Below are positions 4,022 to 43,456 of a DNA stretch of 64,000 bases, in pieces. Within the stretch, counting starts at the first letter, position 1. Every line of letters begins with the position of its first letter. Made by a program: the position numbers and the translations under genes. Location of the stretch: positions 5,952,001-6,016,000 of the forward strand of contig NZ_RJJY01000001.1 of the NCBI RefSeq assembly GCF_003751085.1, read 5' to 3'. This DNA comes from Micromonospora sp. Llam0 (GTDB lineage: Bacteria; Actinomycetota; Actinomycetes; Mycobacteriales; Micromonosporaceae). Below the pieces are notes generated by a model, which saw only the letters and a list, made by a program, of their open reading frames with translations, did no database searches and was not told the origin of the DNA.

Positions 4022-5326
4022 CTACCGCGCGCCGAGGTGCTCGGCGGCGTACGCGGTGATCGTCTTGCCGAGGATCGCGGCGAGTTCGGCGCACTCGTCG
4101 GTGTCGATGGTCAGCGGCGGCAGCAGCGGCATCACGCCGTCGGAGTAGCTGGTCAGCAGCCCGTTGTCCCGGCAGGCCAGCCGGAGCCGGTAGACGTCGC
4201 GCACCGTCCACGGCGTACCGTCGTCGCGGTAGCGCAGCTCCAGGCCGAGCAGCATCCCCTCACCACGTACGTCCCCGACGTGCGGATCGTCGGCCAGCGT
4301 GTCACGCAGGATGTCGCACAGCTGCCGGCCACGGTCGCGGACGCCGTCGAGGAAACCGTCGGCGGTGAGGACGTCCAGGACGGCGAGGCCGGCGGCGGCA
4401 CCGAGCGGGTGCCCGTCGGTGGTGCTGCCGTTCGGGAAGCCGAGCCGGAACGGCGGCTCGGCGAGCGCGTCGAAGATCGGGTCGGCTACCGCGAGCACGG
4501 CGAGCGGGAAGTATCCGGCGCTGAGGCCCTTGCCGAGCACGATCATGTCGGGTGGCTCGGGCAGCCGCTCGCTGACCGTCATCGCCGCGACCCGACCGGC
4601 GCCGGTGGTCACCTCGTCGGCGACGACATGGATGTCCCGGGCCCGGCAGTAGTCGATCAGCGCCGCCAACTGGTCGACGCTGGCGGCGTGCAGATAGTTG
4701 CCCATCACCGGTTCGACGATGACGGCGGTCACCTGCGCCGCGCCGAGCCGGTCGACGACGGCAGCGACGGCGTCGAGCAGCCCGTCGCCCCCGGCGACGT
4801 GCACCACGCGGTCGTCCAGCGGCGTCGACCACTCGTGCAGGATCTGCTCACCGGTGAGCGCGGTGGCCAGCGGCCCGGTGCCGTGGTAGCTGCCGTGCAC
4901 CGCGATGATCCGGTCACGGCCGGTCTCGCCGGTCATTCTCCGGTAAAAGCGGGACAGCATGCCGGCCGCCTCGGTCATCTGGCTGCCGGTGTTGCCGAAC
5001 CGGATGTGCCGCAGGGTCGGCGGCAGCGTCGCGGCGAGGGCGGCCGCGTACCGCACGGTGACCCGGGGCGGGTGCTCGTAGCGCATCACCGTCCCGGACG
5101 GCAGCTCGTCGAGCTGGCGGCGCATCGCCGCCTTGACCGGCTCGCACGAGTAGCCGAGGGTGACGTTCCACATCGACGAACGGGCGTCGAGGTAACGTCG
5201 GCCGGCCTGGTCGACGGCGTAGCTGCCGTCGCCGCCGACGAGGAACATGTCCGGGTCGGACTCGGCGAGGAACTCGCCCATCGGGGTGATGCCGTGCCAG
5301 GCGTGGTAAGTGGACCGGTCGATCAT
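4022..5326 (-). CDS. Class III PLP-dependent aminotransferase (RiPP cluster 1)
   Basis: The 434-residue protein is a fold-type I class III aminotransferase. It shows a glycine/Thr phosphate-binding region (NTGSQMTEAA, about 112-121), HGSYHGTG (about 144-151), the PLP-ring Asp in VVADEVTTG (Asp237) and the Schiff-base lysine in VLGKGLSAGY (Lys266). Length is normal for the family. Its ATG overlaps the stop of the E1 beta gene by four bases, so it is the last gene of an MFS-E1alpha-E1beta-aminotransferase operon. Substrate cannot be predicted. Transamination of an amino or keto acid handled by the TPP enzyme next door is the simplest hypothesis. Confidence 0.85.
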   Translation of the reverse strand: MIDRSTYHAWHGITPMGEFLAESDPDMFLVGGDGSYAVDQAGRRYLDARSSMWNVTLGYSCEPVKAAMRRQLDELPSGTVMRYEHPPRVTVRYAAALAATLPPTLRHIRFGNTGSQMTEAAGMLSRFYRRMTGETGRDRIIAVHGSYHGTGPLATALTGEQILHEWSTPLDDRVVHVAGGDGLLDAVAAVVDRLGAAQVTAVIVEPVMGNYLHAASVDQLAALIDYCRARDIHVVADEVTTGAGRVAAMTVSERLPEPPDMIVLGKGLSAGYFPLAVLAVADPIFDALAEPPFRLGFPNGSTTDGHPLGAAAGLAVLDVLTADGFLDGVRDRGRQLCDILRDTLADDPHVGDVRGEGMLLGLELRYRDDGTPWTVRDVYRLRLACRDNGLLTSYSDGVMPLLPPLTIDTDECAELAAILGKTITAYAAEHLGAR

Positions 5327-6276
5327 CGGGCGGCTCCTCGGCGGGCGGCGGACACGACGTGTTCCTCGTCCGGCAGCAGGGCGGCGCTCAGCGGCGGGCT
5401 CACCGGGGCCGGCACCGGGGCACCGGCGACCACGTCGAGCCGCTGCGGCGCGACCGCGCCGGTGCGTACCAGGTGCAGGCCGAGCGCGGACATGACGCTG
5501 ACGCCGGCTGGGGCCTCGTCGACCAGGATCACCTGACCGCCGGCGGTGCGGACCATGGCGGTGACGCCGTCGAGGTCCAGCGGGGCGGCGGTACGCAGGT
5601 CGACCACCTGGGCGTGCAGCCCGTCCCGGTCGAGGACGGCGGCGGCCCGCAGGCAGGTGGCGACGGTGTTGCCGATGCCGACGAGGGTGAGGTCGCGGCC
5701 GGGGCGGGCGCGGCCGGCGACGCCGAACGGCAACGCGGCGTCGGTCGGCTCCGGTTCGGGCAGCGACGCCCAGTCGGCGGCGTACAGCCGGGGCGATTCC
5801 AGCACCACCACCGGATCCGGATGCACCAGCGCGGTACGCAGCAGCCCGGCGGCGGCGTTCGGTGACCCGGGCACGGCGACGACCAGCCCGGGAATCTGGC
5901 TGAGCAGGCCGTGCGCGGCGTGTTCGTGCTGGGCGCCGAGTTGCTCGCCGCCCTGGGTCAGCCCGCGCACCACCACCGGTACGGTGAACTGCCCGTCGGA
6001 CATGTACCGCCACTTGGTGGCCTCGTTCACCAGCTGGTCGAAGGCGGTGAACAGGAAGGCGGCGCGGGCGATGCTGACCAGCACCCGGCGGCCGAGCAGC
6101 GCCATCCCGACCGCCATGCCGAGCATGGTGTTCTCGGCGATCGGCAGCCGGACCATCCGCTCGGCGCCGAACAGTTCGATGAGGTCGGGCTGCTGGTACG
6201 TACAGAACATGCTCATTGTGGGCTGGTCGGCCAGGGCGCCGCGGACCGCGCCGACGGACGGGTGCCGGCGGGTCAT
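5323..6276 (-). CDS. TPP-dependent E1 beta / transketolase C-terminal-type subunit
   Basis: This 317-residue protein matches the beta subunit of 2-oxoacid dehydrogenase E1 enzymes. A pyrimidine-binding domain occupies about 1-185, including the ENTMLGMAVGMALLG segment with the Glu that activates TPP. A transketolase C-terminal domain follows at about 190-317 (LTLVGIGNTVATCLRAA, QVVDLRTAAPLD). It is translationally coupled to E1 alpha upstream (ATGA overlap) and to the aminotransferase downstream. No E2 or E3 gene is nearby, so the pair more likely acts as a stand-alone decarboxylase or carboligase for a dedicated substrate than as part of a dehydrogenase complex (inference). Confidence 0.82.
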   Translation of the reverse strand: MTRRHPSVGAVRGALADQPTMSMFCTYQQPDLIELFGAERMVRLPIAENTMLGMAVGMALLGRRVLVSIARAAFLFTAFDQLVNEATKWRYMSDGQFTVPVVVRGLTQGGEQLGAQHEHAAHGLLSQIPGLVVAVPGSPNAAAGLLRTALVHPDPVVVLESPRLYAADWASLPEPEPTDAALPFGVAGRARPGRDLTLVGIGNTVATCLRAAAVLDRDGLHAQVVDLRTAAPLDLDGVTAMVRTAGGQVILVDEAPAGVSVMSALGLHLVRTGAVAPQRLDVVAGAPVPAPVSPPLSAALLPDEEHVVSAARRGAAR

Positions 6277-7367
6277 GCCGCCGGCTCCCGCACCGTGACG
6301 GCTTCCGGCCAGGTGGCGCCGGGCGGCCAGGTCGCGGCGGTGACCGCGGTGACCGCGCTCGCCGGGTCCGGCCGGTCGGCGGCCAGGGCGTCGGCGAAGA
6401 CCTCGGCCAGCTCCGCGGTGGCCTGCTCCCGGACCGTGGCGGCCCGCTCCCGGCCGGTGGCGGCCTGCTTCCGGATCGCGGCGGACGGTCCGGCGAGGGT
6501 CGCCTCGACGCGGGTCAGCGGATCCCGGGCCAGCCAGCGCTCCCGCTCGGCGGCCGGTCGGTACTCGCCTGGCGGCTGCGGTCCGAGCTGGGCGTGGAAG
6601 TGCCGCAGGTAGGTGTGGGCGACGAGGACCTGCGGGCGGCCCGCCCGACAGTGGGCCAGGGCCGCCGCCGCGGCCCGGTGCACCGCGGTCACGTCGTTAC
6701 CGTCCACCTCCGCGCAGTCCAGCCCCAGGCCGCGGGCGGTCTCACCGGGTGTCCGGTGCCGCACCAGGTCGCTCGGGGTGTGGTCCTGCCAGCCGTTCTC
6801 CTCGCAGACCAGCAGCAGCGGCAACCCGAGCACGGCGGCGACGGTGAGCGTCTCGTAGGCGGCGCCGGCGCCGAACGCGCCGTCACCGCAGAACGCGATG
6901 ACCGCCCGGCCGCTGCCGGCGGTCTTCTCCGCCAGCGCGGCACCGGCCGCGATCGGCAGCTGCGTGGCCACGATGGAGCTGGCACCGAGCAGGTAGCGGG
7001 ACCGGTCGGCGATGTGCATCGACCCGGCCTTGCCGCCGCAGACCCCGCCGACCCGGCCGAGGATCTCCCGGGCCAGCCCGGCGGCGGCAACCCCGGCGGC
7101 CAACGCGTGCCCGTGGCACCGGTAGAAGCTCACCACCCACTCGTCGGGCTGTCGGGCGGCCAGCACCCCGACCGCGACAGCTTCCTGCCCGGTGTACGGG
7201 TGGACCGATCCGGGCACCTGGCCGGCGGCGGCGCATGCCAGGACCTGCTCCTCGAAAACCCTGATCCGAACCATCTCGCGGTACGCGTCCGACAGGTCCA
7301 TCGTCTGGGTGTTCCCCGTCCCTGCGCCGGCGGAGATCCGTGCACCGGCCGCATCGGAAGCAATCAT
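6273..7367 (-). CDS. TPP-dependent E1 alpha subunit
   Basis: The 364-residue protein carries the E1 alpha fold. The TPP motif starts at GDGAFGAG (161-168) and closes at EEN (189-191), 28 residues after GDG, the classical spacing. GSVHPYTGQEAVAVG (about 53-67) and HGHALAAG (about 85-92) are also family-typical. The last 60 residues are Ala/Arg/Glu-rich, helical and absent from standard E1 alpha proteins. It is adjacent to the MFS gene in the same direction and coupled to E1 beta. Being split in two chains and lacking E2/E3 partners, it looks like a biosynthetic TPP enzyme dedicated to this cluster. Confidence 0.82.
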   Translation of the reverse strand: MIASDAAGARISAGAGTGNTQTMDLSDAYREMVRIRVFEEQVLACAAAGQVPGSVHPYTGQEAVAVGVLAARQPDEWVVSFYRCHGHALAAGVAAAGLAREILGRVGGVCGGKAGSMHIADRSRYLLGASSIVATQLPIAAGAALAEKTAGSGRAVIAFCGDGAFGAGAAYETLTVAAVLGLPLLLVCEENGWQDHTPSDLVRHRTPGETARGLGLDCAEVDGNDVTAVHRAAAAALAHCRAGRPQVLVAHTYLRHFHAQLGPQPPGEYRPAAERERWLARDPLTRVEATLAGPSAAIRKQAATGRERAATVREQATAELAEVFADALAADRPDPASAVTAVTAATWPPGATWPEAVTVREPAA

Positions 7368-7453
7368 GATCGCCTGCTGAATGCCGCCAATTATGGTGCC
7401 GGATCGACGCCGGTCGCAATACTGGAATTGGTCGGGGTCCGGTCAGGATATGG

Positions 7454-8680
7454 TCAGGATGTGGGTGCGGTCACTCGCCGGGAAACCACGGTGACGGTGC
7501 CGAGGAAGGCCACGGCTGCGAAGCAGATCAGGGTGGGCAGCACCCCCCAGAGTTGCGCCGCGACGCCAGCGAGCAGCGATCCGACCGGCACCGCCAGCAC
7601 CGCGAGCGCCCGGCTCAACGCAAGCACCCGGCCCAGCAGCGGGCCGGGGACCACGGACTGCTGCAACGACACCGAGGCGATCAGCCAGACCGTGGCGCAG
7701 TACCCGAAGATCGTCTCGTAGACGATCAGGGTCAGCACCGACGGCGTGACGGCGGCCAGCGGGATCAGCATCAGGGCGGCCCCGGCGAGCGGGGCGAAAA
7801 CCGGGACCACCCGGGGGTGGCCGAGCCGGGCGATCACCCGTCGCGCGGTGGCCACGCCGGCGACGGCGGCGACGCTGTTCACCGCGAAGGTCAACCCGAG
7901 CACCCACGGCGACAGGTCGAGGACCCGGTAGGCGTACAGCACGTAGAGGCCGCCGATCGCGGACCCGCCGAGGTTCAGCGCGGCGGCGGTGACCGCGATC
8001 CGGACCAGCTCCGGGCGACCGCGCAGCGCCGCCACCCCGTCGCGCAACGCCCGTAGTGGATGTTCCGGCACCGGCGGTGTCCCGCCCGGCCGGGGCCGCA
8101 GTGCGGCGAAGCCGACGGCGGCCAGCGCCTGCGCTGCGGCGTTCGCCGACATCGCCAGCGCCCCGCCGAGGGTCTGCACCAGCCAGCCGGCCAGCGCCGG
8201 CCCGGCGATCTGGCCGGCCGACTGGGCACCGGCCAGCGCGGCGTTCGCCGGCACCAGCCGGTCCGGTTCGACCAGTTGCGGCACGGTGGCCTGCAGGCCG
8301 ATGGTGACCAGCCCACCGAGGATGCCGGACAGGCCGGCCACGGCGTACAGCAGCGGCAGGGAGAGCGCTCCGGCCAGCGCGGCGACCGGTACGGCCAGCA
8401 CCACGGCGGCGGTGCCGGCGCTGGCGGCCATGAGCAGCCGGCGCCGGTCGACGACCCGGTCGACGACCACCCCGAGCAGCGGTGCGGCGAGCGCCTGGGC
8501 GCCGTACTCCAGGGCGAACAGGGTGGCCGCCGCCACCGGCGAGGCGTGCAGCGCCACCACCGCCACGGTCGGCAGGGCCAGCGCGGCGACGTGGGTGCCG
8601 ACGACGCTGGCGGCCTGAGCGGCGACGGCCGGGCGCAGCGGTCGATCAACCGCGATCGACGTGATGAGACGGCCGGGCAT
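7454..8680 (-). CDS. MFS transporter, probable exporter of RiPP cluster 1
   Basis: About 408 residues with roughly ten to twelve hydrophobic helices and the loop DRVVDRRRLLMAAS typical of the major facilitator superfamily after TM2. The ATG at 8680 is preferred because a GAGGAG ribosome binding site sits eight bases upstream; GTG codons at 8689 and 8686 are alternatives. The gene is the first of the minus-strand operon, divergent from the diiron protein and precursor genes, with repeats in the shared 5' region. Export of the cluster product or self-protection is inferred from context. Confidence 0.82.
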   Translation of the reverse strand: MPGRLITSIAVDRPLRPAVAAQAASVVGTHVAALALPTVAVVALHASPVAAATLFALEYGAQALAAPLLGVVVDRVVDRRRLLMAASAGTAAVVLAVPVAALAGALSLPLLYAVAGLSGILGGLVTIGLQATVPQLVEPDRLVPANAALAGAQSAGQIAGPALAGWLVQTLGGALAMSANAAAQALAAVGFAALRPRPGGTPPVPEHPLRALRDGVAALRGRPELVRIAVTAAALNLGGSAIGGLYVLYAYRVLDLSPWVLGLTFAVNSVAAVAGVATARRVIARLGHPRVVPVFAPLAGAALMLIPLAAVTPSVLTLIVYETIFGYCATVWLIASVSLQQSVVPGPLLGRVLALSRALAVLAVPVGSLLAGVAAQLWGVLPTLICFAAVAFLGTVTVVSRRVTAPTS

Positions 8681-8856
8681 GGGCACCACTCCTCGGCTCG
8701 GTCGGTCGAGTCACCTTCCCACAGCCACGGTCGCCATCGAAAGTCACGGTGATCAAGGTAAATACCCTTAGCCCGCTCCACTGGTCGCGAACCGACCACC
8801 GGCCGTCACGGTAATGCTTGCCGTTCCGACGTGAGGTCATTTATGCTCATCACATC

Positions 8857-8876
8857 GTGCGCCGCAGACGGCGCAC
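8857..8876. promoter_or_regulatory. Palindromic operator candidate (8-4-8)
   Basis: GTGCGCCG and its exact reverse complement CGGCGCAC are separated by CAGA. The site lies between the divergent MFS operon and the diiron-protein/precursor operon, 22 bases before a set of 16-bp direct repeats. A homodimeric regulator site is plausible; it could also be an RNA hairpin in the long leader of the plus-strand operon. Confidence 0.4.
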
Positions 8877-8898
8877 ATCCTCGCCGACGCACACGAAC

Positions 8899-8946
8899 CA
8901 GCGCACCGAGAAATCAGCGCACCGACGAATCAGCGCACCGAGAATC
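8899..8946 (+). repeat. Three tandem 16-bp direct repeats upstream of RiPP operon
   Basis: The 11-mer CAGCGCACCGA recurs at 8899, 8915 and 8931, exactly 16 bases apart, with near-identical AAT-rich spacers (GAAAT, CGAAT). The array sits 60-105 bases before the ATG of the diiron protein, within the 324-base divergent region. Spacing of 16 bases is not a whole number of helical turns (about 1.5), so alternate faces of the helix would be presented. Regulatory iterons or a leader-RNA element are possible. Confidence 0.55.
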
Positions 8947-9004
8947 TCCTGCTTGTCGTAATCCCGTGACCGACGCTGGGCGGCAAGCCTGTGGGGAGTC
9001 GCCA

Positions 9005-9763
9005 ATGGCACTCATCGATGCCGACGATCTTGATCGCAACGAGTTGGCGTACCGCGTCTTCGGCGTGACCCGCGACAAGACGCCGTGGCGCGCCGCGGAC
9101 ATCATCGCCGGCGGGCCGGCGGACCCCAGCTGGGAGCGGGCCGAGCTGGCCTGGCGGATGTCCTCGCGCGGCTACTACGCCGAGCAGGCCGGGCTGGTCG
9201 CCGCCGCCACGCTGGCCGCGCAGACCGAGGACGCGCCGCTGCGGTTCAGCCTGGCCCTGGCCACCGCGGACGAGGCCCGGCACGCGGACGCGTTCTACCA
9301 GTACGCGAAGCTGGCCGGCGGCGGCGAGCCGGAGCCGGAGGCGCCCGAGCTGATGGAGCCGCTGGACACTGCGCTGGCCCGGCTGCCCTACATGGGCCGG
9401 GCGCTGGTGCACACCATGCTGGAGGGGTTCGCCGCCGACGAGTTCATCCTGCTGCGCGAGGTGTTCGCCGGTGACCCGCTCGGCCTGCTCTACCACCACG
9501 TACGCCGCGACGAGATTCAGCACGTCGCGATCGGCCTGAACTACCTGGCCCGCGAGTCCACCACGGGCGAGGGGCGCGAGCTGTGGCGCGAGTACGGGTC
9601 GCAGTGGCACGAGATCGGCATGCGACTGACCTACCTGGACAAGATCTCGGTGTCCCTCGCCGAACTGACCGGCCGTGAGCCCGACCGGCTGCGGCACTGG
9701 TTTCTCCGCCGGCACCGAGCCCGCCTGAGCGCCGGTGGAGTCGACATGGACGGAGGGAGGTGA
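9005..9763 (+). CDS. Ferritin-like diiron protein (R2-like), RiPP cluster 1
   Basis: The ATG at 9005 (GGGGAG upstream) gives 252 residues. The protein is almost wholly helical and has two ExxH signatures, EARH (90-93) and EIQH (170-173). Additional acidic ligand candidates lie near Glu75 and Glu140, the arrangement of ribonucleotide reductase R2/ferritin-like diiron oxygenases. It is far too short to be a housekeeping R2 and has no R1 partner. Its stop lies within the ribosome binding site of the 27-residue peptide gene, so the two are co-translated. Likely a tailoring oxygenase or oxidase acting on the peptide or on a small-molecule building block (inference). Confidence 0.75.
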   Translation: MALIDADDLDRNELAYRVFGVTRDKTPWRAADIIAGGPADPSWERAELAWRMSSRGYYAEQAGLVAAATLAAQTEDAPLRFSLALATADEARHADAFYQYAKLAGGGEPEPEAPELMEPLDTALARLPYMGRALVHTMLEGFAADEFILLREVFAGDPLGLLYHHVRRDEIQHVAIGLNYLARESTTGEGRELWREYGSQWHEIGMRLTYLDKISVSLAELTGREPDRLRHWFLRRHRARLSAGGVDMDGGR

Positions 9764-9768
9764 ACATC

Positions 9769-9852
9769 TTGACCATCAAGAAGGTCACTATCAAGACGCC
9801 GGCCCACGGCACCTGCAAGTACCTGGTCCCGACCCGGAAGGCCGAGAAGTGA
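9769..9852 (+). CDS. Candidate RiPP precursor peptide, 27 residues
   Basis: A TTG at 9769 follows GGAGGGAGG (9752-9760) at ideal distance and opens 27 codons ending at TGA 9850-9852. A GTG at 9760 would add three residues. The peptide is lysine-rich, with TIKKVTIKTP in its N-terminal half, a single cysteine in the middle (HGTCKY, Cys16) and a PTRKAEK tail. It sits immediately after the diiron gene and before a strong hairpin and a RiPP-type radical SAM gene, the usual place for a precursor. It resembles no precursor family I know and has no obvious leader/core boundary, so the assignment rests on context. Confidence 0.55.
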   Translation: MTIKKVTIKTPAHGTCKYLVPTRKAEK

Positions 9853-9905
9853 TCGCGGCCGGCGAGGCGCGGGTAAGACCGCGTGGAGGGCCGAAGACGT
9901 GATCG

Positions 9906-9935
9906 GCCGGATGGGGCGGTCCCGCCCCATCCGGC
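9906..9935 (+). terminator. Strong hairpin between precursor and radical SAM gene
   Basis: The 13-base arm GCCGGATGGGGCG (9906-9918) pairs perfectly with 9923-9935 around a GTCC loop. It lies 53 bases after the precursor stop and 42 bases before the radical SAM start. No U-tract follows, which is common for actinobacterial terminators. A partial terminator or 3'-stabilising hairpin here would keep peptide transcript in excess over enzyme transcript. Confidence 0.65.
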
Positions 9936-9977
9936 GTACCTCGGTACGACGCGCTCACCAGCTGAAAGGCCCGACCG

Positions 9978-11849
9978 ATGTCCGTATGTCTGGTCGCCAT
10001 GCCCTGGCAGGCCATCGAATCACCATCACTGCCGATCGGGTTGCTCAAGGCGATGACGGTCGCCACCGGGCGGCCCGCCCCGACGGCGTACCACGGCAGC
10101 CTGCGCTGGGCCGAGTTCCTGATGGAACGCAGCGACGGCGAGCTGAGCCCGGCCGACTACACCGAGGTCGCCGAGGTGGGCCTGTTCGACGGCCTCGGTG
10201 ACTGGGTCTTCGCCGGGGTGCTGCACGACGACCCCGAGTTCGGCGTGCAGACGCTGCGCCGCTACGCGGCCGAGTACGGCACCGGCATCGCCGGACCGAC
10301 CGCGATGCGCCAGTACGCCGCCGACTTCGTCGAGCTGGCCGCCGCCGAGATCCTCGCCACCGATCCCCGGCTGGTCGGCTTCACCACCACGTTCATGCAG
10401 AACGTGCCGAGCCTCGCGGTCGCCCGGCGGATCCGCCAGCTCGACCCGGGCGTACGGATCGCGTTCGGGGGCGGCAACTGCGACGGCGCGATGGGGATCG
10501 CCCTGCACCGCAACTTCCCGTTCGTCGACTTCGTGGTACGCGGCGAGGGCGAGGTCGCGTTCCCGATGCTGTTGGACGCACTCGACGCTGGCGACAACCT
10601 CGACGCTGGCGACGAGCGTGACGCCCGACTCGCGCGGATACCCGGGCTGTCCTGGCGCCGGGCCGACGGCAGCGCGCGGCACAACCCGCAGGGCGCGCTG
10701 CTGCCCCCGGCACGCATCCCCACCCCGGACTTCGACGACTGGTTCGACCAGCTCGCAGCCTCGCCGGTCGGCGAGTACATCGAGCCCAAGCTGGTCCTGG
10801 AGGGCGCCCGGGGCTGTTGGTGGGGCGAGAAGCACCACTGCACCTTCTGCGGGCTCAACGGCACCGCGATGACGTTCCGGGCCAAGCCCGCCGAACGCAT
10901 GATCGCCGAGATGACCGAGCTGGTCGGCCGGCACCAGACCCTCGACGTGATCATGGTCGACAACATCATCGACAACCACTACTACGCCGACTTCCTGCCC
11001 CGGGTCGCCGCGCTCGGCTGGGACCTGCGGCTGCACTACGAGGTGAAGTCCAACCTGCGGCCGGCCGAGATCGACGCGCTGCGCGCCGCCGGCGTGGCCC
11101 ACGTACAGCCCGGCATCGAGTCGCTGGTCAGCCCGGTGCTCAAGTTGATGGACAAGGGCGTCGCCGGCGTGCACAACGTACGGACCCTGCGCGACTGCGA
11201 GTCCGCCGGCCTCACCGTGTCGTGGAACTGGCTGTACGGGTTCCCCGGCGAACGCCGCGTCGACTACGACTCGGTGCTGCGCCAACTCCCCCGGCTGGTG
11301 CACCTGCAGCCGCCGGCCGGTTCGTCGCGGATCCTGCTCGAACGGTTCAGCCCGTACTTCGAGAACCCGGTGCTCGGCTTCCCGACCCGCCGCGCCGCCC
11401 GGCTCTACCAGCACGTCTACGACCTGCCCGAGAACGAGCTGGCCGACCTGGTCTACCTGTTCGACACCGAGCCCGCCGGACTGTCCGAGCAGGACGCCGA
11501 GCCGCTGAACGAACTGCTCAAACGCTGGACCGACGGCTATCCGGCCAGCGCGCTGCAGCTGCTCACCGGCCTGGACGCCGACGAGATCGTGATCGCCGAC
11601 CGGCGGGTCGGCTGGCCGGACCGCGAACACCGCATCGCCGACCCCCGGCTGCGCCGTGCCTACGCCGAGCTGGAGCACGGCCGTACCGTCACGGCCCTGG
11701 CCGGGCGGCTCGCCGCCGCCGGACTGCCGGTGGAGACCGACCAGCTGGCGCGGTGGCTGGCCGAACTCGACGACGCCGGGCTGGTCTTCGAGGAGAACGG
11801 CCGCTGGATCACCCTGGCGACCGCCGTCGAACCGGTCAAGGTGGCGTGA
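9978..11849 (+). CDS. B12-type RiPP maturation radical SAM protein (rSAM_ocin_1-like)
   Basis: The 623-residue protein has an N-terminal B12-binding-like Rossmann region (about 1-200, with IAFGGGNCDG and VDFVVRGEGE). The radical SAM core carries an unusual cluster motif, GCWWGEKHHCTFCGLN, with cysteines at 280, 288 and 291 (CX7CX2C). That motif is characteristic of the 'RiPP maturation radical SAM protein 1' family. A C-terminal winged-helix-like region (about 540-623) is also typical. Family members are thought to C-methylate or otherwise modify ribosomal peptides. A DUF5825-like gene follows one base after its stop. Confidence 0.85.
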   Translation: MSVCLVAMPWQAIESPSLPIGLLKAMTVATGRPAPTAYHGSLRWAEFLMERSDGELSPADYTEVAEVGLFDGLGDWVFAGVLHDDPEFGVQTLRRYAAEYGTGIAGPTAMRQYAADFVELAAAEILATDPRLVGFTTTFMQNVPSLAVARRIRQLDPGVRIAFGGGNCDGAMGIALHRNFPFVDFVVRGEGEVAFPMLLDALDAGDNLDAGDERDARLARIPGLSWRRADGSARHNPQGALLPPARIPTPDFDDWFDQLAASPVGEYIEPKLVLEGARGCWWGEKHHCTFCGLNGTAMTFRAKPAERMIAEMTELVGRHQTLDVIMVDNIIDNHYYADFLPRVAALGWDLRLHYEVKSNLRPAEIDALRAAGVAHVQPGIESLVSPVLKLMDKGVAGVHNVRTLRDCESAGLTVSWNWLYGFPGERRVDYDSVLRQLPRLVHLQPPAGSSRILLERFSPYFENPVLGFPTRRAARLYQHVYDLPENELADLVYLFDTEPAGLSEQDAEPLNELLKRWTDGYPASALQLLTGLDADEIVIADRRVGWPDREHRIADPRLRRAYAELEHGRTVTALAGRLAAAGLPVETDQLARWLAELDDAGLVFEENGRWITLATAVEPVKVA

Positions 11850-11850
11850 G

Positions 11851-12399
11851 ATGAGTACGGCGACGCTGCTCACCGACCGTACCGACCTGGCCGCCTGGTC
11901 GCTGCGGACGGTGACCCTGCCGGAGCCGCTGGACTTCGGTGACTCCCCCGAGCAGGACCTGGCCCAGTTGCGGTTCCTGCGCGCGGTGACCAGCCACGCC
12001 GTACGGCTGCGCTGGACCCTGCGCGGGCGGCCGTCGCTCCCGCTGGACACCCACGTGCACCTGGTCGCGCCGTCGGCCGGCACCGACCAGGCCAGCCGGG
12101 CCTACGCCGGTGAATGGGGCCTGGCCTACCGGTACGGCAGCTGCTACTACCGTCGCGGGCCGGGAATGGTGGTGGTCAAGGACGTCCGGCCCGGGGTCGA
12201 GGCCAGCCGGATGGTGATCACCGACGGGGCCGACGCGTTCCTGCGGCTGGCCGAGGACCCGTCCGGGGTGCCCGCACCGGGTGATGTCGACGCGGCGGCC
12301 GTCGCCGTCGAAGTCGGGCTGGCCTGCGCGGCCGGCGACGCGGTGCTGATCCTGCCCTACCGGATGCGGCACTGGCCGGTGCCGCACGTGGCGGTGTGA
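11851..12399 (+). CDS. DUF5825-like partner of RiPP radical SAM protein
   Basis: This 182-residue soluble protein starts one base after the radical SAM stop. It has a mixed alpha/beta composition with SRAYAGEWGLAYRYGSCYYRRGPGM-type central sequence (about 86-110) and no recognisable catalytic motif. Proteins of this size and context are annotated as DUF5825 beside the same radical SAM family, which is my reason for the name. A role as substrate-recognition or accessory subunit is plausible but unproven. Confidence 0.6.
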   Translation: MSTATLLTDRTDLAAWSLRTVTLPEPLDFGDSPEQDLAQLRFLRAVTSHAVRLRWTLRGRPSLPLDTHVHLVAPSAGTDQASRAYAGEWGLAYRYGSCYYRRGPGMVVVKDVRPGVEASRMVITDGADAFLRLAEDPSGVPAPGDVDAAAVAVEVGLACAAGDAVLILPYRMRHWPVPHVAV

Positions 12400-12411
12400 G
12401 GCAGCCCGGCG

Positions 12412-13665
12412 ATGACCGCGTCCGCACCACACGACCCGCAGCCGCACGACGAGCCGCAGCCGCACAAGCCGCCGCTGTACCCGTTCCGCGACTACGACGA
12501 ACTGGCGCTGGATCCCAGGTTGGCCCGGCTGCGCGCCGAATGTCCGGTGTCCCGGATCCGGCTGCCGTACGGCGGCGACGCCTGGCTCGCCACCCGCTAC
12601 GCCGACGTGACGACGGTGCTCGCCGACCCCAGGTTCAGCCGGGCCGCCGCCTGCGGCCCGGACGTGCCCCGGCAGACCGAGTCGCCGCCGGTGGCCACCA
12701 CCATCCTGGACCTGGACCGGCCCGAACACGGTCGGCTCAGACGCATCGCCGCCAGCGCGTTCGCCCAGTGGCGCATCGAGCGACTGCGCCCGTACGTCCG
12801 GCAGGTCGCCGCCGAGCGGATCGACGCACTGCTGGCCGGCCCCTCACCGGGCGACCTGTACGCGACGGTCGCGCTGCCGGTGCCGCTGACCGTGCTGTGC
12901 CACGTTCTCGGCGTACCGCTGGCCGACCGTGAGCGGTTCCGCGCCTGGACGCATGCGCTGCTGATGCCCGGGCCGATGCCGGCCGACGAGTTCCGGTCGG
13001 TCACCGCCGCGCTGGAGGACTACCTGCGGGAACTGATCGCGTACCGCCGCGAGTCGGCCACCGACGACCTGCTGAGCATGCTGGTCCGGGCCACCGACGA
13101 CGGCGACCGGATGACCGAGCAGGAGCTGGTGTCGTTCGGCGTGACCCTGCTCGCCGCCGGGTTCGAGACCACGGCCAGTCAGCTGGCCAGTTCGGCGTAC
13201 CTGCTGCTGCGCCGCCGGCACGTGTGGGAGTCGCTGTGCCGGGAGCCGGACCGGGTGCCGGCGGTGGTCGACGAGCTGCTCCGGTTCGTGCCGCTCAACG
13301 GCGGCAGCGGGCTGCCCCGGGTGGCGACCGAGGACGTGGTGCTGGGCGGCGTGACGGTCCGGGCCGGGGAGGCGGTGTTCGCCTCGACCATCTCCGCCAA
13401 CCGTGACGACGAGGTGTTCCCGGAGGCGGACACCTTCGACCCGGACCGGCGCCCGACGGCCCGGCATGTCACCTTCGGCTACGGCCCGCACCGCTGCCTC
13501 GGCGCCTGGTTGGCCACGATGGAGATCCAGGAGGTGGTCGGCGCGCTGGTCGCGGCGGCGCCGGGCCTGCGGTTGGCCGACCCGGACGGAGTACGGTGGC
13601 GCGCCGGGACCATCGTGCGCGGCCCGCTCGCGCTGCCGGTCGACTGGCGACGGTCACGAGGCTGA
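12412..13665 (+). CDS. Cytochrome P450 of RiPP cluster 1
   Basis: A 417-residue class I bacterial P450 with canonical motifs: the I-helix AAGFETTASQ, the K-helix ExxR in VDELLRF, and the heme-thiolate loop FGYGPHRCLGAWLA. The N-terminus is a His/Pro/Gln-rich extension (about 1-25) preceding the fold. It follows the DUF5825-like gene by 12 bases and ends the plus-strand operon. Hydroxylation or oxidative cross-linking of the modified peptide is the likely role. No ferredoxin gene is in the operon, so redox partners must come from elsewhere. Confidence 0.88.
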   Translation: MTASAPHDPQPHDEPQPHKPPLYPFRDYDELALDPRLARLRAECPVSRIRLPYGGDAWLATRYADVTTVLADPRFSRAAACGPDVPRQTESPPVATTILDLDRPEHGRLRRIAASAFAQWRIERLRPYVRQVAAERIDALLAGPSPGDLYATVALPVPLTVLCHVLGVPLADRERFRAWTHALLMPGPMPADEFRSVTAALEDYLRELIAYRRESATDDLLSMLVRATDDGDRMTEQELVSFGVTLLAAGFETTASQLASSAYLLLRRRHVWESLCREPDRVPAVVDELLRFVPLNGGSGLPRVATEDVVLGGVTVRAGEAVFASTISANRDDEVFPEADTFDPDRRPTARHVTFGYGPHRCLGAWLATMEIQEVVGALVAAAPGLRLADPDGVRWRAGTIVRGPLALPVDWRRSRG

Positions 13666-40337: not shown

Positions 40338-41524
40338 CCGATCGCGACGGTCGGCACGCCGGCGGGGTCGACGAAGTGATCGACCCGCATTCCGCTGGCC
40401 TGCAACCGGCTGAGGATGTGCCGAGGGCGGCGCAGGTCGGCGACCAGGAATTGTGAGGTGTTCACATCGTTCTGCGCCTGGGTGCCCGCGCGGTACGGTG
40501 CCACGTCCGGGCTGCCAGGGCTGAAAACTCCGGCCAGACCGACGGCCTTGTCCTGGAAGTCCTGCGGCTCTCGGGTGGTGAGTACGAGACGCTGCTCCGG
40601 GCAGGTGAATGCGACGACTGCGAGCATCCGCAGGTAGTCGTCGTCGTTTACGCGGGTGGTGTCGCGGGAGGCGTTGGCAGGACGCATCCGTGGTAGCGAC
40701 AGATCGACCACGGCGCCGCGTTCGTGCAGGTGGGCACCGTGCGCGACGAGGTCCACGAGTTCGGCGGCCAGATCGTCGTGCAGGCCGACCAGCACTCCTG
40801 GGTTGACGTACCGGAACCCGGCGTCGAGCCAGCGGTCGAAGGAGACGACTCGGCGGTCGAAGTCGGCCTTCGGCACCTCCTGCGGCGTCCGGCCCATGAA
40901 CCGCTTGTACGTCTCTCGGTCGTAGGACTCCTGGAAGACGCACATGGTGACGGGTTCGGAGGGGCGGATCCATTCCCCGAGGACGTCGATCTCGTCTGGT
41001 TCCATGCTGCCGATGTTGAAGTAGATGCGCTCGAAGCCCATGTCGAGCGCGGCTCGCATTGCCCAACCGATCCGGAACGCCGTGCTGAGCCGTGTGTACT
41101 TGTCCTGGTACTCGCCGGTCAGCAGGCCGACCCCGCGGACGCCTTCATGGGTGTAGAGGATGTCGAGCTGCTCGAGGATCTCGTTTCGGCCGGAGAACTT
41201 GCGATCCATCCGGGTGTTGCCCTTACGCATCGAGCACATCTTGCATTCGGAGTCGCAGTGGTTGGTGGTGTAGAGCGGCACGAACGTGTGCAATCGCGGC
41301 TCGCGAGTCGCGCACCGGGCCTCTGCGGCGGCGATGAGCTCTTCCGTGGAGATCGTCCGGTCCTGCCACAGGGCCAGTGCGACGGCAGGTCGGCCTGCGG
41401 CGGGAACCTTACCGACGGGCGACGCCAGCGCGGCCCTCGCGTCGACCGCCTCGGCCTCCTTCTGCACAGCGCCGAAGTCCGGTTTCACGAAATCGGATGT
41501 GGCTGTGGCGCTCTGATCCCTCAC
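40334..41524 (-). CDS. nosL: Radical SAM tryptophan lyase, 3-methyl-2-indolic acid synthase (NosL-like)
   Basis: A GTG at 41524 with an AAGGGGAA ribosome binding site gives 396 residues. The radical SAM cluster is NHCDSECKMCSMRKGNT, CX3CX2C at 90, 94 and 97. Conserved stretches such as IYFNIGSMEPDEI, YVNPGVLVGLHDDLAAE and LSLPRMRPA match NosL/NocL, which rearrange L-tryptophan to 3-methyl-2-indolic acid. It is the first gene of the long minus-strand operon. Confidence 0.92.
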   Translation of the reverse strand: MRDQSATATSDFVKPDFGAVQKEAEAVDARAALASPVGKVPAAGRPAVALALWQDRTISTEELIAAAEARCATREPRLHTFVPLYTTNHCDSECKMCSMRKGNTRMDRKFSGRNEILEQLDILYTHEGVRGVGLLTGEYQDKYTRLSTAFRIGWAMRAALDMGFERIYFNIGSMEPDEIDVLGEWIRPSEPVTMCVFQESYDRETYKRFMGRTPQEVPKADFDRRVVSFDRWLDAGFRYVNPGVLVGLHDDLAAELVDLVAHGAHLHERGAVVDLSLPRMRPANASRDTTRVNDDDYLRMLAVVAFTCPEQRLVLTTREPQDFQDKAVGLAGVFSPGSPDVAPYRAGTQAQNDVNTSQFLVADLRRPRHILSRLQASGMRVDHFVDPAGVPTVAIG

Positions 41525-42217: not shown

Positions 42218-43456
42218 ATGAGGACCGCCCCCGCCGCCGACAACCAGCTCGGCCTTCCCAGCAGCACTGCGGACAGGCGCGTCCTGCTGCTGTACGTACA
42301 CGTACCTTTCTGCCACTCACGCTGCACGTTCTGCGACTGGGTGCAGGCGATCCCCAACAAGGACCTCCTCCGCAAACCCGGCGACTCCGTCCGGGAGAAG
42401 TACATCGACGCGCTCTGCCGGGAGATTCGCGAGCGCGGTGCCGAGCTCGCCGGGAGCGACACGATGTCGTACGTCATCTACTGGGGTGGCGGAACCGCGA
42501 GCAGCCTCGACAACGACGAAGCCACCCGCGTCATGACAGCCCTGCGGGACGCGTTCGACCTCAGCATGGTCGCCGAAGCAACGATCGAGTGCAGTCCGGA
42601 CACGGTAGACGCGGAAAGATTGGCCTTCTTCCGCAAACTCGGCTTCAACCGAGTGTCCAGCGGGGTGCAGTCCTTCGACGACGACCGGCTGCGGCGGCTG
42701 GGCCGCCGGCACACCGCCGACCAGGCCATCCGACTCACTCACGCCGCCCGCGAGGTGGGGTTCGACGACGTGTCGATCGATATCATGTCCGGCTTTCCGG
42801 ACCAGCGTCTCGACGAGTTACGGTACACCGTCGACCACGCGGTACAACTGCCAGTCAACCATCTGTCCCTCTACTCGTTCCGCCCCACACCCGGCACGTT
42901 CATGCGACGTCGGATGAACCCCGAGGAGAAGCGCGGCTACCTCCGCGATCAGAAGCACCTGTTCACGCAGGCCCGACGGCTCATCACCACGGCCGGGCTG
43001 AGTGAGTACGCGTCCGGCTACTTCGGGAAGGTGTCACCGTTCGCGGCGATGTACTTCCAACTGCGCGCCGACACGGTGGGCTTCGGATCCGGGGCGATCT
43101 CACTGGTCAACCAACAGTTCCTGGCGCATCGCAAGGGCCTGCTGCACAGCTACGTCGACGCCCCTACCAAGTTCGACGTCGCGGTCCCGGCCAGCCAGGA
43201 CCGTGTCCTGATCTCCTTCCTTCAGGCCGGCCTGGCGATGTTCGACGGCATCCTGCGCGACGAGTGGCTCGTCTCCACCGGCACCGACCTCGACGAGGTG
43301 CTCACCCGTCCGGCCATCGCGCCGCTGACCGATTTCCTGCGGGGACGAGGGCTCATCTGTGACGAACGTGGCATCCGTTTACCAGTACGCAACGTCGGAG
43401 TGACGCTCATCGAGCTCGCCTTCGAGATGGCGATGTCGCAGCCGGAGTTGGCGTGA
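42218..43456 (+). CDS. nosN: Class C radical SAM methyltransferase (NosN-like)
   Basis: An ATG at 42218 after GAAAGGA gives 412 residues. It has a HemW-like radical SAM core with VPFCHSRCTFCDW (CX3CX2C at 32, 36, 39), YWGGGTASSLD, ECSPDTVDAERL and NRVSSGVQSFDD. In nosiheptide NosN, this family adds a one-carbon unit to C4 of the indolic acid and forms the ester to Glu6. The same side-ring closure is expected here. Confidence 0.9.
   Translation: MRTAPAADNQLGLPSSTADRRVLLLYVHVPFCHSRCTFCDWVQAIPNKDLLRKPGDSVREKYIDALCREIRERGAELAGSDTMSYVIYWGGGTASSLDNDEATRVMTALRDAFDLSMVAEATIECSPDTVDAERLAFFRKLGFNRVSSGVQSFDDDRLRRLGRRHTADQAIRLTHAAREVGFDDVSIDIMSGFPDQRLDELRYTVDHAVQLPVNHLSLYSFRPTPGTFMRRRMNPEEKRGYLRDQKHLFTQARRLITTAGLSEYASGYFGKVSPFAAMYFQLRADTVGFGSGAISLVNQQFLAHRKGLLHSYVDAPTKFDVAVPASQDRVLISFLQAGLAMFDGILRDEWLVSTGTDLDEVLTRPAIAPLTDFLRGRGLICDERGIRLPVRNVGVTLIELAFEMAMSQPELA

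Follow-up and report, generated by a model that had tools for sequence, protein, structure and literature searches.

A conserved peptide gene cluster of Micromonospora sp. Llam0 and its relatives combines a B12-type radical SAM enzyme, an R2-like diiron protein and a stand-alone E1 pair

A 64,000-nt stretch of the Micromonospora sp. Llam0 genome (contig NZ_RJJY01000001.1), called the window below, carries a group of genes at positions 4022-13665 which very probably forms one conserved unit for a ribosomally synthesized and post-translationally modified peptide (RiPP), a thiamine diphosphate (ThDP)-dependent E1 pair included. All coordinates are positions in the window unless a locus is named. 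A gene for a 27-residue precursor peptide lies between the genes of a ferritin-like diiron protein and a radical S-adenosylmethionine (SAM) enzyme, and the E1 pair, an aminotransferase and a major facilitator superfamily (MFS) exporter are encoded divergently. Every gene named in an earlier note on this DNA is present and belongs to the family claimed, as judged by Pfam or NCBIfam matches and, for the diiron protein, by its ligand pattern. The closest named relatives are found in Solwaraspora (the aminotransferase matches that of Solwaraspora sp. WMMD792 at 97 %). The features are as follows.

4022..5326, minus strand: pyridoxal phosphate (PLP)-dependent class III aminotransferase, 434 amino acids (PF00202, 3.4e-57)
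5323..6276, minus strand: ThDP-dependent E1beta, 317 amino acids (PF02779 and PF02780)
6273..7367, minus strand: E1alpha, open reading frame (ORF) of 364 amino acids, true start possibly near 7301 (PF00676, 2.8e-49)
7454..8689, minus strand: predicted MFS exporter, 411 amino acids (PF07690, 5.1e-25)
8690..9004, no strand: divergent intergenic region separating both operons, from its position between the gene sets
9005..9763, plus strand: ferritin-like or R2-like diiron protein, 252 amino acids (conserved ligand pattern, modelled fold)
9769..9852, plus strand: precursor peptide gene, 27 amino acids, TTG start (same place in 17 loci)
9808..9822, plus strand: core motif G-T-C-K-Y, precursor residues 14-18 (GxC[KR]Y invariant in 17 loci)
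9978..11849, plus strand: B12-type radical SAM enzyme of the RiPP C-methyltransferase family, 623 amino acids (TIGR03975, 570.7 bits)
10815..10850, plus strand: CX7CX2C iron-sulfur motif of the radical SAM enzyme, CWWGEKHHCTFC (pattern in 45 of 46 radical SAM loci)
11851..12399, plus strand: DUF5825 protein, 182 amino acids, possible leader-binding partner of the radical SAM enzyme (PF19142, 1.8e-22)
12412..13665, plus strand: cytochrome P450, 417 amino acids, optional tailoring gene (PF00067, 7.5e-30; FGYGPHRCLG)

Seventeen loci, the window among them, contain both the diiron and the radical SAM gene; four of these (L032, L033, L035 and L062) were reached via the radical SAM enzyme and the others via the diiron protein. 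All 17 have a short ORF with the motif GxC[KR]Y between the two genes, and the conserved peptide that had been set as a check on the cluster is thus found at the same position throughout. An automatic count gave 16 of 17: the L062 peptide, read separately, was missed because the radical SAM frame of this locus is broken and its best match begins late. The motif is absent from the 450 bases upstream of the radical SAM gene in each of 29 diiron-negative loci with the same radical SAM family (L065, with a partial radical SAM match, is not counted among them), and its background is 14 of 4396 tiles, true sites included. Synonymous exceeds nonsynonymous rate in eight of nine peptide pairs, with few changes in each, the exception being L070 against L032. 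A chance ORF was rejected on the grounds of the core motif (17/17 against 0/29) and of the synonymous excess, and the locus has what characterizes a RiPP cluster, a precursor gene whose product has a conserved core, next to that of a maturation enzyme. The predicted start of the peptide needed correction to the TTG at 9769, which lies behind GGAGGGAGG, the diiron gene ending at 9763.

The E1 genes, for which company with the radical SAM operon had been named as the second check, follow the RiPP genes closely. A strong diiron match (at least 368 bits, the remainder reaching at most 49.5) is found in 6 of 200 Micromonosporaceae genomes, the window's own included, 23 genomes having some match; the identical six genomes carry E1alpha at E 1e-70 or better, and three more genomes of the same genus within this sample have neither a strong diiron nor a strong E1alpha match. 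Among 160 Micromonospora genomes the diiron profile gives 11 matches (eight strong, two intermediate at 1e-67 to 1e-66 and one weak). E1alpha relatives at E 1e-40 or better occur in 100 of these genomes, only eight of which reach at least 376 bits (the next has 215), and these are the eight strong-diiron genomes. The genomes compared are relatives and hence not independent, but their gene arrangements do differ.

Three arrangements are seen. Divergent operons are found in the window, L066-L070, L032, L033, L098 and L099. In L094-L097 the order is diiron-peptide-radical SAM-DUF5825(-P450)-MFS, with E1alpha-E1beta-aminotransferase convergent to it, the P450 missing in L096 and the aminotransferase in L097. 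L102 encodes E1alpha-E1beta-diiron-peptide-radical SAM-DUF5825-MFS all on one strand, with E1beta and the diiron gene overlapping by 4 bases, so that in this relative E1 is part of the RiPP gene string itself. Contig sizes tell the same story of linkage: of E1alpha family representatives on contigs of at least 6 kb, 16 of 38 match the contig of a diiron representative by exact size among the matches listed, compared with 0 of 26 for the next E1alphas listed, and aminotransferase representatives match diiron or E1 contigs in 20 of 34 cases, the next aminotransferases listed in 2 of 35. This matching took 102 of 112 diiron rows, 77 of 79 nearest E1alpha rows and 62 of 63 nearest aminotransferase rows, from the best 120 of 609 E1alpha and the best 120 of 136 aminotransferase matches; the rows dropped lacked a contig or, in nine cases, were fragments or distant diiron proteins. 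Only contigs of at least 6 kb were counted, as chance matches are possible on very short ones (for example 1402 bases in the aminotransferase set).

The radical SAM, DUF5825 and MFS genes are present in all 17 diiron-positive loci (the MFS protein of L035 at only 26 % identity), the E1alpha and E1beta pair in 15, the aminotransferase in 13 and the P450 in eight. Both a DUF5825 gene and a P450 follow the radical SAM gene in the window, as the earlier note had it, but the P450 is not constant and was dropped as a defining gene. E1 as a constant member is qualified by L035 (Actinopolyspora) and L062 (Streptacidiphilus, with broken frames), in whose whole genomes no E1alpha relative was found at E 1e-60. 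The aminotransferase is likewise qualified by its absence from L035, L062, L097 and L102: at E 1e-50 none was found in the genomes of L062, L035 and L102 (G592, G594 and G856), and the only relative in the L097 genome is a 47 % paralogue elsewhere. All 13 aminotransferase-positive loci have a CKY core, and the two CRY loci, L102 and L035, are both without aminotransferase; a strict rule tying the aminotransferase to the CKY core in both directions was dropped, as L097 and L062 break it. After the exporter of L102, genes for a SAM-dependent methyltransferase and a NIPSNAP protein are seen at 5285-5911 and 4918-5247 of that locus, both on the minus strand. A noisy all-against-all search for shared genes gave a TrmB/LuxR-like regulator near five Micromonosporaceae loci as its sole lead.

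That two divergent operons adjoin by chance, or that the peptide is a chance ORF, would agree with the absence of E1 from L035 and L062. This explanation is contradicted by the co-occurrence, the rearrangements and the core motif, and we regard it as very improbable; chance adjacency was rejected in view of the same genome sets, the one-strand order of L102 and the rearranged loci. That the cluster is one unit is well supported.

The window operons are compactly built. E1alpha/E1beta and E1beta/aminotransferase overlap by 4 bases at stop and start on the minus strand, which suggests translational coupling; the divergent order of MFS, E1alpha, E1beta and aminotransferase proposed before agrees with the Pfam matches. 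On the plus strand one base separates the radical SAM gene from the DUF5825 gene, and the P450 comes next.

The leader of the peptide is basic and has a wider distribution than its core. A pattern near M-x-I-K-K-V-x-I-K, drawn up after the sequences had been viewed, occurs in 16 of the 17 loci with a diiron gene and in 13 of the 29 without one, against a background of 21 of 4396 tiles, the diiron-negative cases being Streptomyces MEIKKVVVRE... peptides. As the leader is common to both sets of loci and the core confined to the diiron-positive ones, the sequences suggest that the leader may be read by the shared radical SAM/DUF5825 pair and that the core may be specific to the diiron/E1 branch. 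In L094 and L095 a second precursor-like ORF stands beside GVCKY, between the diiron and radical SAM genes, with the same leader and the core THGVS[QK]HC; it may be a further substrate or else a copy in decay.

The radical SAM enzyme scores 570.7 bits against a cut-off of 281.85 for TIGR03975 and carries the CX7CX2C motif, in line with the RiPP maturation class assigned to it earlier; among the 46 radical SAM loci this motif fails only in L062, whose match is a fragment. Its B12-binding domain, at 30.8 bits, is slightly below the cut-off of 32.1, and B12 dependence is therefore assigned from the TIGR03975 family. In a radical SAM tree (45 of 46 rows, L062 being too broken) the Micromonosporaceae members cluster with Actinoplanes L034, which has no diiron gene, and L102 and L035 fall elsewhere, separated from them by diiron-negative loci, a pattern pointing to loss, exchange or gain of the diiron/E1 set on more than one occasion. 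L034, with its radical SAM nested among diiron-positive ones, has a DUF5825 gene and a different upstream peptide (MKIKVENVKRPDETRT...), and is a possible case of core exchange. The DUF5825 protein, in a model built on the window sequence and 31 of the 39 relative frames found, bears a weak resemblance to the winged-helix RiPP recognition element (RRE); Foldseek alone and a PDB profile search gave nothing significant for it. Further radical SAM matches in the window lie at 42293-42835 (plus strand, 79.9 bits, over the Pfam cut-off) and 40757-41272 (minus strand, 22.1 bits, under it). Two Micromonospora species have a second radical SAM match, 32-34 % identical, about 8.5-9 kb downstream of the cluster (L032:20389-21822 and L033:20992-21822, both minus strand), which runs to the end of the stretch examined.

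Neither Pfam nor NCBIfam gives a match for the diiron protein at E 0.1. E60, E90xxH93, E140 and E170xxH173 are invariant in the 30 aligned of 112 diiron relatives found, and the protein is modelled with an R2-like fold whose matches have 8-22 % identity. This ligand set (E, ExxH, E, ExxH) together with the modelled helical bundle marks it as a putative diiron oxidase of the R2/ferritin-like kind, with predicted metal binding. At E 1e-20 its profile detects 1 of 394 genomes of the wider 'class' sample (the window's own), 2 of 297 in the family of G591 (the genomes of L035 and L102), 1 of 297 in the family of G592 (that of L062 itself) and 2 of 180 in the family of G593, L109 being one of them; no match to the diiron protein was found among plasmids, and PADLOC, run on three proteins, found nothing. 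Three loci with distant diiron proteins and no radical SAM gene (L100, L101 and L109) were kept apart from the 17. L100 and L101 are at 36-37 %, radical SAM being absent from the stretches examined. At L109:9346-10143 a 37 % diiron relative lies beside a nonribosomal peptide synthetase (NRPS)-like ORF, which suggests a role of the broader diiron family in further natural-product pathways.

E1-type thiamine enzymes normally serve central metabolism. The E1alpha proteins of all 15 E1-positive loci retain the ThDP motif GDG...N, and the E1beta proteins AQHE (15/15) and PIAEN (14/15); the solved chains closest to E1alpha are pyruvate dehydrogenase (PDH) E1alpha, and the solved relatives of E1beta are 2-oxo acid dehydrogenase E1beta. 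The E1alpha ORF may extend too far in the 5' direction, as most relatives are annotated at about 305-345 amino acids, although the nearest ones also have 362-364. The aminotransferase has its lysine motif GKGL in 12 of 13 positive loci, and its closest solved relatives include omega-transaminases. The nearest E2 on the same contig is 2.1 Mb away, one of five PF00198 (E2) matches elsewhere in the genome, and in a tblastn search with two E2 frames, covering the window as well as 18 relative and two outgroup loci, a single marginal match (7e-4) appeared, at the diiron gene of L069. Two E1alpha genes with 43-45 % identity, L141:7421-8422 (minus strand) and L142:7712-8713 (plus strand), lie in what appears to be another Micromonospora natural-product cluster; a nearby PLP enzyme in L141 has GntC as its best NCBIfam match (260 of 415 bits). 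These Micromonospora outgroups were judged by ORF only, which leaves their E1 type unlabelled.

With moderate confidence we propose that the cluster represents an undescribed RiPP class. The RRE-like domain of the DUF5825 protein would hand the leader to the radical SAM enzyme, which would C-methylate the peptide. The diiron enzyme would oxidize the core on its Cys or Tyr side and so expose a carbonyl. With ThDP, E1 would decarboxylate pyruvate or a different 2-oxo acid and add the two-carbon carbanion to this carbonyl rather than to a lipoyl E2. The aminotransferase would then convert the resulting ketone to an amine, some members would use the P450 for additional tailoring of the product, and its export would fall to the MFS protein. 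We infer this chemistry, including the carbonyl, the methylation site and the order of steps, as well as the substrates of E1 and the aminotransferase. The parts of the scheme differ in strength: that E1 works as an E2-free carboligase or acyl transferase is likely, that it acts directly on the peptide has an even chance, and its action as a C-C ligase placing a C2 unit on a diiron-made carbonyl of GxC[KR]Y, followed by transamination, is a tentative suggestion.

The order of the two last enzymes might be reversed, with the aminotransferase first turning the Lys side-chain amine of GxCKY into an aldehyde to which E1 then ligates its two-carbon unit. Class III aminotransferases often use omega-amines, the omega-transaminases among the solved relatives fit such a role, and so does the CKY core of every aminotransferase-positive locus beside the two CRY loci without the enzyme. 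Few independent events stand behind this distribution, however; L102, whose core has Arg, retains E1 but lacks the aminotransferase, so that E1 there cannot use allysine, and L097 and L062 are CKY loci without a cluster aminotransferase, with the distant paralogue in the former genome and none in the latter. We hold this order to be unlikely. About as doubtful is the notion that E1 and the aminotransferase produce a small molecule, such as an amino ketone or amino alcohol, which either serves as a building block to be joined to the peptide or is a separate product made beside it. E1, with the aminotransferase where present, does form its own operon, divergent or convergent, in all E1-positive loci except L102. 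Against the notion stand the overlap of E1beta with the diiron gene within a single string in that locus and the absence of any ligase, carrier protein or NRPS from the nine window proteins scanned.

Less probable still is that E1 belongs to the ordinary 2-oxoacid dehydrogenases and relies on the housekeeping E2 and E3 to supply acyl-CoA. The good alignment of the window E1 with PDH E1 and the five E2 matches elsewhere in the genome would suit it, but the strict co-occurrence with the diiron gene, the lack of a linked E2 and the gap from 275 to 227 bits to the next E1alpha family, among the matches listed, argue otherwise. The E2-free action of E1 within the RiPP unit is the reading we favour.

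No published description of this gene set, nor a pathway using it, was found in the literature searched, which lay mostly outside subscription papers, and the statement that no such pathway is described stands within that literature. Should the peptide be the substrate of E1, RiPP chemistry would gain a ThDP-dependent umpolung route to C-C bonds, for which the same literature yielded no description. With its 27-residue substrate and five to eight enzymes, the cluster would then also offer a compact genetic system for testing this reaction. Further loci can be sought by the combination of an R2-like diiron gene and a TIGR03975 radical SAM gene flanking a GxC[KR]Y peptide; the cluster also suggests a role for DUF5825 as leader-binding partner of B12-dependent radical SAM RiPP methyltransferases.

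Several known systems share parts of this set. R2-like ligand-binding oxidases, the ribonucleotide reductase R2 subunit and aldehyde-deformylating oxygenase resemble the diiron protein in fold and in the E, ExxH, E, ExxH pattern, whereas here the protein has 252 amino acids, 8-22 % identity to them and a RiPP context. In daptides, according to PMC10036551, a class III aminotransferase aminates a peptide ketone (MpaABCDM), and daptide_amino is the best, sub-threshold NCBIfam match of the window aminotransferase. Membership was rejected, as the score is 239.2 against the 450 bits required and no GxC[KR]Y precursor of the 17 loci ends in Thr; unlike daptides, the nine window proteins include no alcohol dehydrogenase or DUF-RRE protein. 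Aminopyruvatides were rejected too (ApyD 80.3 of 750 bits, ApyO 78.1 of 525 bits). In biphenomycin-type MNIO/B12-radical SAM clusters a short core is processed by an iron oxidase, a partner protein and a B12-radical SAM enzyme, an MFS gene is present, and YHxYxY variants also carry DUF5825, as PMC12257519 describes. Here the oxidase is R2-like diiron instead of MNIO (no PF05114 match among the nine proteins), the core is different, and E1 and the aminotransferase are added. PMC12257519, referring to Zhang et al. 2025, also reports that a homologous B12-radical SAM/DUF5825 pair C-methylates in clavusporins. The window shares the B12-type radical SAM gene adjoining DUF5825 with the RiPP clusters of this type and differs from them, as described there, in the GxC[KR]Y core, the R2-like diiron protein, the E1 pair and the aminotransferase.

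For the E1 pair the nearest parallel is alphaKADH2 (aldgamycin, kosinostatin and the KbDH-alpha/beta of kibdelomycin), E1alpha/E1beta-type enzymes of natural-product C2 transfer. PMC12247030 describes these pairs as building a two-carbon branch from pyruvate onto keto sugars, and the branch ketone as open to reduction, methylation, oxidation or, in kibdelomycin, transamination. The view of a stand-alone E1 as unusual in a RiPP setting therefore holds as to the missing E2 and has to be softened as to the enzyme, since stand-alone E1 pairs have, by the same source, precedent in natural products. Like alphaKADH2, the window pair lacks a linked E2, in a search that covered E2, not E3, and retains the ThDP-binding and active-site motifs. 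It differs in having no sugar genes among the nine proteins and in its linkage to a RiPP precursor and maturases, and the two are likened by predicted function. The E1 and aminotransferase pair fits the sugar-branching logic of alphaKADH2, with a peptide in place of the sugar.

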